From: Marivita sp.
GTDB taxonomy: Bacteria > Pseudomonadota > Alphaproteobacteria > Rhodobacterales > Rhodobacteraceae
Direction of reading: 5' to 3'
DNA length: 64,000 bases
Assembly (NCBI RefSeq): GCF_022763305.1
Contig: NZ_JALEGT010000121.1
Span: 1 to 64,000 of the forward strand
Both the position numbers and the translations under genes were made by a program. Below the pieces are notes generated by a model. That model saw nothing but the letters and a program-made list of their open reading frames with translations, had not been told where the DNA came from and ran no database searches. How positions within the stretch are numbered: the stretch's first letter is position 1; every line of letters begins with the position of its first letter. Below, one piece after another: positions 14,834-19,077 of this stretch.

Positions 14834-15457
14834 TTAACTGGCGGCGTCAAGAAAGCAGGACGTGCGCTCGGCAACCTGTTCGGGGCTCAATTCACGACGG
14901 AAAAACTCGACGAAACCGTCCTCGGGCATGACGAGATATGTAAAGGTGGAGTGATCGACGAGGTAGTAATCGTCATCACCCGGTTGCGCGCGGAAATAGG
15001 TCCGATACGCTTGGCTCGCTGCCTTCACCTGCTCTTCCGATCCCGTCAGACCGATCATGTCTTCGTGCAGATTGGCAGCGAATGCACCCACCGCTTCAGG
15101 CGTATCGCGTTTCGGGTCGATGGAAATGAACACCGGGGTCACCTCGTGCCCCTGGCTCTTGAGCAGGTCGACCGCCTCGGCATTGCGGACCGTGTCGAGT
15201 GGGCACACATCCGGGCAGAACGTGTAGCCGAAATAGATCAGTGATGGCTTTGTGATCACATCTTGATCCGTGACGGTCTCACCCGCGGAATTTACCAATG
15301 TGAATGGACCACCAATGGTGTCGGCCCCGCCTGCAACCTGCGTATTCCGGCAAGAGGCATACTTGTCGCCATCGCCGTCCGGCTGGCTTGCGTACCAAAT
15401 TCCCCCCATCAGGGCGACAATCGCCACACCAGCCGAAATCGCTGCCAAACGTACCAT
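14834..15457 (-). CDS. senC: SCO1/SenC/PrrC family protein
   Basis: FGYTFCPDVCPLD copper-binding CxxxC motif, VDHSTFTYLV; start trimmed to MVRLAAISAG. Confidence 0.93.
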   Translation of the reverse strand: MVRLAAISAGVAIVALMGGIWYASQPDGDGDKYASCRNTQVAGGADTIGGPFTLVNSAGETVTDQDVITKPSLIYFGYTFCPDVCPLDTVRNAEAVDLLKSQGHEVTPVFISIDPKRDTPEAVGAFAANLHEDMIGLTGSEEQVKAASQAYRTYFRAQPGDDDYYLVDHSTFTYLVMPEDGFVEFFRRELSPEQVAERTSCFLDAAS

Positions 15458-15574
15458 GTTATCTCCTTCGCCGTCGCGCGAACAAAGCACTTCTCATCAG
15501 AATTGCCTTGCTTATGCTCTGCCACTGTCGAGGTAAGGATTTTGACATCCGGCACAAGTGGCGAAAGGGCGCAG

Positions 15575-16963
15575 ATGACACAATCCGAATTCGGGATTTT
15601 CCAGGAACGCCAGCGCGGCAGTTTCATCCGACTGCGGACGATGATCTGGCTGCGCTGGTGCGCCATCGTGGGTCAACTTGCGGCCATCACGCTTGCGCAG
15701 AAATTCTACAACCTGCAGCTTGAACTGGGTTTGTGCTATCTCGCCGTCGGCGTGTCCATCGTCGGAAACCTGATCGCGATCTTCGTTTTTCCCGAGAACA
15801 AGCGTCTGAACGAGGCCGAGAATTTTCTCATGGTCCTCTTCGATCTCTTGCAACTGTGTTTTCTGATTTATCTCACGGGCGGTTTGCACAATCCCTTCAC
15901 CATTCTGATCCTCGGTCCGGTGATCGTGTCTGCGACCATCATGACACTTCGGTCGACCATCATCATTGGTGCAACAGCCCTGACACTCGTTACGTTGATG
16001 GTGTTCTTTCACCTGCCGCTTCGCACCGAACAGGGGTTCATCATGCGCATCGCGGACGTGTTCGTCTTCGGGCAATGGACGGCCATCACCATCGCGGTGA
16101 TCTTCCTGTCGCTCTATGCGCGCCAGATCACCGAGGAAATGAACTCGATGGGTGATGCCGTTGTCGCAACGCAGATGGCCCTCAGCCGAACCCAGATGCT
16201 CAACAATCTCGGTGGAGTGGTTGCAGCCGCAGCGCATGAGTTGGGGACACCTCTGGCGACCATCAAGCTGACAAGCGCCGAGTTGATCGAAGAACTGTCG
16301 GACCAACCGGACCTGCAAGAGGATGCGCGCCTGATCCGCGATCAGGCCGACCGCTGCCGCGACATTCTTCAGTCGATGGGCCGCGCGGGCAAGGAAGACC
16401 TCCAGATCCGCTCGGCCCCCTTGGTCGAGGTCATCCGAGAAGCGGCGGAGCCACACCTGAACAGGGGCAAGGATGTACTGATCGACTCACTGGGAGAGGA
16501 CGAAGACCCGTTTGATCCACCACTTGCCCTTCGACGTCCGGAAATCATCCATGGTTTGCGCAATCTGATCCAGAATGCCGTCGACTTCGCGCGTGCCACG
16601 GTTTGGGTCGAAGCCCGCTGGACAGCGAAAACCGTGTCCGTGCGGATCATGGATGATGGTCCGGGCTACCCGACCAATATGCTTGGACGGATCGGCGATC
16701 CCTTCGTCCGCAACCGTCGCACGGAACGCGACCGCACAACCCGACCGGAATACGAAGGCATGGGCCTTGGTCTGTTCATTGCAAAGACACTGTTGCAGCG
16801 CTCGGGGGCCGAACTCAGCTTTGCCAACGGCGCAGATCGCGCCAACGGCTCTTCCCGCCGACGCGGCGCGATTGTCGAGGTCGTCTGGCCACGGGATGCC
16901 ATCGTGCCTCCCATCCTGCCAAAGGGTGAAGGCATCGGGGAAAATCCGTCGTTCGAGGTCTGA
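15575..16963 (+). CDS. regB: Redox sensor histidine kinase RegB/PrrB
   Basis: Six-TM N-terminus, AAAHELGTPLATIKLTSAEL H-box, conserved Cys in DQADRCRDIL, C-terminal HATPase; divergent from senC-regA. Confidence 0.95.
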   Translation: MTQSEFGIFQERQRGSFIRLRTMIWLRWCAIVGQLAAITLAQKFYNLQLELGLCYLAVGVSIVGNLIAIFVFPENKRLNEAENFLMVLFDLLQLCFLIYLTGGLHNPFTILILGPVIVSATIMTLRSTIIIGATALTLVTLMVFFHLPLRTEQGFIMRIADVFVFGQWTAITIAVIFLSLYARQITEEMNSMGDAVVATQMALSRTQMLNNLGGVVAAAAHELGTPLATIKLTSAELIEELSDQPDLQEDARLIRDQADRCRDILQSMGRAGKEDLQIRSAPLVEVIREAAEPHLNRGKDVLIDSLGEDEDPFDPPLALRRPEIIHGLRNLIQNAVDFARATVWVEARWTAKTVSVRIMDDGPGYPTNMLGRIGDPFVRNRRTERDRTTRPEYEGMGLGLFIAKTLLQRSGAELSFANGADRANGSSRRRGAIVEVVWPRDAIVPPILPKGEGIGENPSFEV

Positions 16964-17037: not shown

Positions 17038-18552
17038 ATGGAGTCCTTGTATCTTGCAGCAACGACCATAGGCCTCGTCTGTGCCGCAACGGCAATCATC
17101 GCCATTCTCATTCTTCATCAATCACGGACGGATGAAGGAACGGCAGTCGCCTCCCGCTCGATGTCGATGGTTTTTCACGACAACCGGCTGATTGATGCGG
17201 ATGACTGGATCTGGTCACTGCTGCCAGGGCCACAGACGCAGATCACATGGGCCGAAATCCGTGCAGCTCTCAGGCCAGTCTTCCCCGATCTGCCCGACCA
17301 TCTCGGCCGGATGCGGCGCTTGTGCCCAGAAACAGGAGTCACCCTGAGTGTCACACGCACAGGGTCGCAATTCCGCGTGACCATCGACCCCGAAGACGGC
17401 TCCGATGTCGATTGGTTCCTTGCCAAACATGCCGAAGCCCATGCCAAGCGCATGAACACCGCCTTGATGCGCGCACCCGACCTGATCTGGTACATGACCG
17501 ATCTGGATGGGTTTGTCTGGGGCAATGATGCGTTCGCCACCTATGCCGAATCCTTTGGCGGAATGTCGCATCTGGCGGACCATATCTCCGGCATCGTCGC
17601 GGAAGCCGGATCGCCCTATCCAAGACGCGTGCCCATCGACCGCAACGAATTGCGAACCGACCAGAACCGGTGGCTGGATGTTTCGATGCACGAAACCGAG
17701 GCCGGACGCTTTTACTACGCAACCGGAATCGATGCGATGATGCGCGCTGAAGCTGCGCAACAGAATTTCGTTCAGACCCTGTCCAAGACATTTGCCAACC
17801 TGACCACAGGGCTTGCCATCTTCGACCGGGACCGTCGCCTGATGGTGTTCAACCCTGCGCTCGTCGATCTCTGCCGTGTGCCCATCGACTTTCTGAGCGC
17901 GCGCCCGGCAATGTTCGAGTTTTTCGATAAGCTCCGAGATTGCCGTGTCATGCCCGAACCCAAGAGCTATGACGATTGGCGCGACCGCATGGCCAGGCTG
18001 GTGGCCGCAGCTCATGATGACCGGTTTCGCGAGACATGGTCGCTGAGCAGCGGTCAGACCATTGACGTCACCGGCCAACCCTACCCTGATGGCGCCATCG
18101 CTTTCCTGTTCAACGACATCACTGCAGAAGTGTCTCTGACACGAGGCTATCGGACCGAACTCGATACCTTGCAATCCGTGATCGACACCATCGACGATGC
18201 TGTGGCGGTGTTCGACCCACAAGGCATCCTGACCGTCTGCAATGCGAACTATGCGACCCAGTGGGATGTCGACCCGGATGCCTGTATCCCGGCGATCACC
18301 ATCGCGGACGCCACACAAGTATGGAAATCCGCCTTTCACCCCAGCCCGATCTGGGCAGACCTTCGGGACTTTGTCACAAACGCCACCGATCGCGTCAGTT
18401 GGGACAGTGAATTGCGCGGCAGGGACGGTCGCGAGGTGCTTTGCAGGATAGACCCAATCTGCCATGGATCTACTCTGATCAGGTTTTCTCACAGATTGCG
18501 CGAGAACCAGACACCGCCGGACACAGGCGGGCTCAAGATCGTTTCCGCCTGA
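17038..18552 (+). CDS. PAS domain-containing membrane-anchored signalling protein, probable DivL-like protein lacking a kinase core
   Basis: N-terminal TM (LYLAATTIGLVCAATAIIAILIL), PAS-like segments (FANLTTGLAIFDRDRRLMVFNPALVDL; VIDTIDDAVAVFDPQGILTVCN); no HisKA/HATPase motifs; next to tsaE. Confidence 0.75.
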   Translation: MESLYLAATTIGLVCAATAIIAILILHQSRTDEGTAVASRSMSMVFHDNRLIDADDWIWSLLPGPQTQITWAEIRAALRPVFPDLPDHLGRMRRLCPETGVTLSVTRTGSQFRVTIDPEDGSDVDWFLAKHAEAHAKRMNTALMRAPDLIWYMTDLDGFVWGNDAFATYAESFGGMSHLADHISGIVAEAGSPYPRRVPIDRNELRTDQNRWLDVSMHETEAGRFYYATGIDAMMRAEAAQQNFVQTLSKTFANLTTGLAIFDRDRRLMVFNPALVDLCRVPIDFLSARPAMFEFFDKLRDCRVMPEPKSYDDWRDRMARLVAAAHDDRFRETWSLSSGQTIDVTGQPYPDGAIAFLFNDITAEVSLTRGYRTELDTLQSVIDTIDDAVAVFDPQGILTVCNANYATQWDVDPDACIPAITIADATQVWKSAFHPSPIWADLRDFVTNATDRVSWDSELRGRDGREVLCRIDPICHGSTLIRFSHRLRENQTPPDTGGLKIVSA

Positions 18553-18603: not shown

Positions 18604-19077
18604 ATGACCCAGAACAGCGCGGCCTTCACCTCGACCTCACCCGATGAAACCGCGCGGTTGGCCATACGGCTGGGGGCAACACTGCAAGCCGGGGATACCA
18701 TGCTTCTCGAAGGTGACATCGGCGCCGGAAAGAGCCATTTCGCACGTGCTCTGATCCAATCGCGACTGCCTGTACCGGAAGACGTGCCCTCGCCGACATT
18801 TACCATCGTTCAAGCCTACGATCTGCCGGACACCATGATTTGGCACGCCGATCTTTACCGGCTTGGCGACCCCGATCAGGTCATCGAACTGGGCCTGCTC
18901 GACGCGTTCCAGACGGCGATCTGTCTCGTCGAATGGCCGGACAGGCTCGACGATCTGCGCCCAAAAGAGGCGCTGACCATCAAGCTTGACGATCCGGACA
19001 AGACAGACCGGCGTGTCATCACACTGAGCTGGTCGGATCCGCGCTGGACGGGGCGTGTTGCGGGCGTTCTGACATGA
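18604..19077 (+). CDS. tsaE: tRNA threonylcarbamoyladenosine biosynthesis ATPase TsaE
   Basis: LLEGDIGAGKSHFARALI Walker A, SPTFTIVQAY, WHADLYRLGDPDQVIELGL. Confidence 0.95.
   Translation: MTQNSAAFTSTSPDETARLAIRLGATLQAGDTMLLEGDIGAGKSHFARALIQSRLPVPEDVPSPTFTIVQAYDLPDTMIWHADLYRLGDPDQVIELGLLDAFQTAICLVEWPDRLDDLRPKEALTIKLDDPDKTDRRVITLSWSDPRWTGRVAGVLT

Follow-up and report, generated by a model that had tools for sequence, protein, structure and literature searches.

Truncated forms of DivL, lacking the pseudo-kinase domain, are a common trait of the Rhodobacterales, where they have been associated with DivK loss and with the presence of a CtrA site at divL (Brilli 2010; Vega-Baray 2022, PMC9430884); the truncation has been mapped onto the species tree (Vega-Baray 2022, PMC9430884). 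The hallmark of DivL is a tyrosine in the position where kinases have a phosphorylatable histidine (PMC4211667). In Caulobacter crescentus, binding of CckA by DivL requires its PAS domains, while its HisKA and CA portions dock DivK~P (PMC11500502). Osp has been put forward as the supplier of inhibition in the DivK-less pathway (PMC9430884), and in Rhodobacter capsulatus DivL promotes CtrA phosphorylation via CckA, according to the part of PMC9143464 that cites Westbye 2018; divL qPCR primer sequences for this organism are printed in the same paper (PMC9143464).

Here we describe a gene from Marivita sp. within a stretch of 64,000 nucleotides, termed the window. With a probability of about 0.87, we regard it as an ortholog of the truncated DivL, devoid of a kinase core, that Rhodobacterales carry: a membrane-anchored array of PAS domains that would stimulate CckA and from which the DivK docking site has gone. 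Coordinates of the gene, its predicted domains and associated features are collected in Table 1.

Table 1. Features of the divL locus and of related loci elsewhere in the same genome (window positions unless a locus or contig is named).
Feature	Position	Strand	Evidence and remarks
regB, conserved upstream neighbor	15263..16963	+	NF045988, 751 bits (cut-off 570); open reading frame as listed, true start probably internal
Exact full CtrA-binding box TTAACGCTTGATTAA	16979..16993	+	Sole exact match in the window; 44 bases from end of box to ATG
Probable short DivL (membrane helix and four PAS-like folds, no DHp/CA)	17038..18552	+	Open reading frame, Pfam, hhalign, AlphaFold, PAS profile
Predicted N-terminal membrane helix, residues 2-31	17041..17130	+	AlphaFold model; hydrophobic sequence
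PAS-like fold A, residues about 42-118	17161..17391	+	AlphaFold model
PAS-like fold B, residues about 149-230	17482..17727	+	AlphaFold model
PAS fold C (PAS_7), residues about 257-360	17806..18117	+	PF12860 over cut-off; AlphaFold model
PAS fold D, residues about 388-485; last part of the protein to align with full-length DivL	18199..18492	+	PF13188 over cut-off; hhalign; AlphaFold model
tsaE, conserved downstream neighbor	18604..19077	+	TIGR00150, 94.9 bits (cut-off 60.1)
Osp-like single-domain receiver, 120 residues	G000:C81:47027-47386; L192:728-1087	-	D51 and H115 present, conserved Lys missing
PAS-HisKA-HATPase-REC hybrid kinase	L183:938-3079; G000:C45 about 153.4-155.6 kb	- in L183	Not DivL by anatomy

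The reading frame is open throughout and encodes a product of 504 residues from an ATG at 17038, immediately preceded by an in-frame GTG (17035). PAS families alone were recognized by Pfam above cut-off, PAS_7 (PF12860) in two stretches, the better spanning residues 253-365, and PAS_8 (PF13188) at residues 378-402; neither HisKA nor HATPase_c was found in the protein by this means. The same DHp/CA-less anatomy is seen in an AlphaFold2 model built with an input of 28 orthologs (mean pLDDT 84.6; pTM 0.45, which makes the mutual placement of the PAS domains uncertain), where the N-terminal helix is followed by four PAS-like folds with long helices between them, and where the tail past residue 485 or so is disordered, the protein stopping about 20 residues beyond the last PAS. 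The original prediction of one N-terminal membrane helix, at least two PAS segments and no kinase core, for which an AlphaFold model had been proposed as a check, thus agrees with both analyses, its count of PAS domains being low by comparison with the four now modeled.

The genes around divL also proved to be those named in the original prediction. Profiles placed ahcY, regA, regB, tsaE, addB, addA and trxA above their curated cut-offs, and the amgK-like and murU-like neighbors gave best matches to those families at scores under cut-off. Among 80 named relatives, regB lies 5' of divL in 77 and tsaE 3' of it in 77, with both flanks retained in 74. An exact CtrA box between -250 and +30 of divL is likewise found in 69 of the 80, and seven control motifs sought in the same upstream regions each occurred in 0-2 of them; the box is read as a predicted CtrA-binding site in the promoter of divL. 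The constancy of regB as neighbor, together with the similarity of the PAS folds to those of PpsR and FixL, could be taken to mean that short DivL is mainly a sensor of redox state or of a ligand, tied to RegBA and not chiefly an activator of CckA. We consider this unlikely, since the likeness to PpsR and FixL is one of fold only, at about 9-17% identity, and the CtrA box suggests a place in the CtrA circuit.

That the gene is an ortholog of DivL is argued most directly by profile comparisons. Within the family, 56 of the 61 genomes searched contained a match to the window protein, mostly a strong one, and a class-wide search retrieved weaker matches, most of them in proteins of about 800 residues. 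In 20 of the distant alphaproteobacterial relatives the phosphorylatable His box is replaced by S/T-Y-[E/Q]-L-R-T/N-P, and both of the distant full-length relatives tested with Pfam contained HisKA and HATPase_c. Alignment by hhalign of full-length, Tyr-bearing DivL with the short DivL profile gave a probability of 100 (E 6.6e-54; 429 columns), the short family occupying columns 131-575 of the 833-column full-length profile and stopping at the border between PAS-D and DHp; the part missing is exactly DHp-CA. When the genome containing the window was searched with a profile of the PAS portion only of Tyr-DivL, the window gene scored 154 bits and the runner-up 31. A search of PDB sequences gave weak PAS-type or chance matches only, and Foldseek general multi-PAS matches only. 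A sensor built of PAS domains alone, unrelated to DivL and perhaps working with RegB, placed here by chance would also sit directly 3' of regB and show no other domains to Pfam, but is made very improbable by this specific match to Tyr-DivL, by the CtrA box, and by the occurrence of tsaE 3' of full-length DivL in other families as well (L034, L040, L044, L045). The grouping with unrelated PAS proteins that had been named as a possible refutation was not seen in these profile comparisons, and the DivL identity first proposed from the letters is supported by the PAS profile, hhalign, the CtrA box and regB-tsaE synteny together.

Nor was a separate full-length DivL, the other outcome named beforehand as contrary, found elsewhere in this genome (121 contigs, 99.72% complete), either among kinase matches or with a degenerate codon pattern for the Y-box (S-Y-[E/Q]-L-R-T-P), which had no match in it. 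Among the kinases, the profile of full-length DivL scored highest at G000:C45:154229-155332, part of a hybrid kinase that was rejected as DivL on account of its single PAS_7 followed by HisKA, HATPase_c and REC, with a normal His box, SHEIRTP. Its architecture is like that of Dinoroseobacter shibae Dshi_3346, which is also labeled a DivL protein in one paper (PMC6473078).

Short DivL recurs throughout the family, at 414-534 residues in the 80 named relatives, and so is not the product of a frameshift or assembly artifact. The nearest of these relatives are Marivita species and metagenome-assembled genomes, at 50-60% identity. A decayed, non-functional remnant of DivL, as absence of the kinase half might suggest, is scarcely credible given an open frame of about 500 residues with many invariant positions across 28 genera, a conserved promoter box and gene order, and an ortholog with a reported role in R. 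capsulatus (PMC9143464). The five family genomes in which a DivL match was absent (G014, G029, G033, G036 and G059, of which G036 is rated at 100% completeness) represent possible losses. At another locus, a DivL frame of only 342 residues lies between regB and tsaE (L026:1456-2481, minus strand), missing most of PAS A-B and apparently the membrane helix, which may be real or reflect an error of start or sequence. An apparent 942-residue RegB-DivL fusion at a further locus (L004) was rejected as an artifact, its additional N-terminal part being regB read out of frame.

The printed primers allowed the window gene to be connected with R. capsulatus divL (rcc00042). The forward primer has an exact match in one of 397 family genomes, inside the orthologous reading frame at locus L191, where the reverse primer lies 82 bases downstream with one mismatch. 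This reading frame is 38% identical to the window protein, is preceded by regB and followed by tsaE, and has an exact CtrA box; it is through the placement of the primers within it that the link with rcc00042 is made. The genome concerned may belong to a close relative of R. capsulatus and not to that species itself. The work of Westbye 2018 is reportedly a study of R. capsulatus DivL.

Partners of the CtrA pathway were sought in the genome that contains the window. CtrA is present (NF045991, 422 bits; cut-off 350), as are a CckA-like hybrid kinase adjoining a gene recognized as recA and a ChpT-like protein, these two being best matches below the subgroup cut-offs, and a GTA_TIM protein. Among the stand-alone receiver proteins seen, from which the presence of DivK was judged, none was recognized as DivK. 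The 120-residue receiver listed in Table 1 fits the published description of Osp (PMC9430884) in its D51, its H115 and its missing lysine, and from these sequence features its gene (on contig C81) is likely to be the osp of this genome. Relatives of it, at 40-63% identity, occur in 30 of 60 other family genomes searched; an exact CtrA box lies upstream in 13 of the 30 Osp-like loci read (controls 0-1), and the boxes just upstream of the gene in our genome are each one mismatch off. Two further receiver-like sequences lie on the minus strand of the window: a small stand-alone frame of 159 residues from a TTG (42372 to 41893), its match to Response_reg weak and below cut-off, and a receiver domain within a protein of roughly 430 residues (59183 to 58845).

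By analogy with the systems described, the window gene probably helps to switch on the CckA-ChpT-CtrA pathway. In the scheme we propose, the membrane-anchored PAS array of short DivL would bind CckA and favor its kinase state, raising CtrA~P, and CtrA would in turn activate divL in a positive feedback. The DHp-CA platform for docking DivK~P would have been lost along with DivK, whose disappearance would make it dispensable, and Osp would take over from DivK the negative control of CckA. A further proposal, to which we give little credence, is that CckA activity is governed, through the PAS array kept beside regB, by redox state or by a small ligand, making the protein a direct environmental sensor for the CtrA pathway and not a leftover activator. 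As to the signal sensed by the array, the locus offers no new leverage beyond a well-conserved set of orthologs.

Compared with the full-length DivL that Caulobacterales and other alphaproteobacteria possess (PMC4211667), the window protein shares the N-terminal membrane helix and PAS array over about 430 homologous columns, but it lacks all of the DHp-CA region, present there with Tyr for His, and hence the docking surface for DivK~P. With the short DivL proteins known from Rhodobacterales (R. capsulatus rcc00042; D. shibae Dshi_3433; PMC2877005, PMC9430884, PMC6473078) it shares the PAS-only build and a promoter with a CtrA site, as well as the order regB-divL-tsaE, found also at the locus carrying the R. 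capsulatus primer sequence. Genomes with short DivL have CckA-ChpT-CtrA without DivK; in the present one CtrA scores over its cut-off, CckA and ChpT are represented by best matches under theirs, and none of the stand-alone receivers seen was recognized as DivK. We found no difference of note from these proteins, identities of 33-60% being usual between genera and species of the family. The kinase-less form is carried by nearly all of the order and has been in print since 2010, so that the original reading was correct and describes a trait already known. The locus adds another genus to the Rhodobacterales in which the CtrA phosphorelay works with a truncated DivL and probably has an Osp-like inhibitor where DivK would otherwise act.
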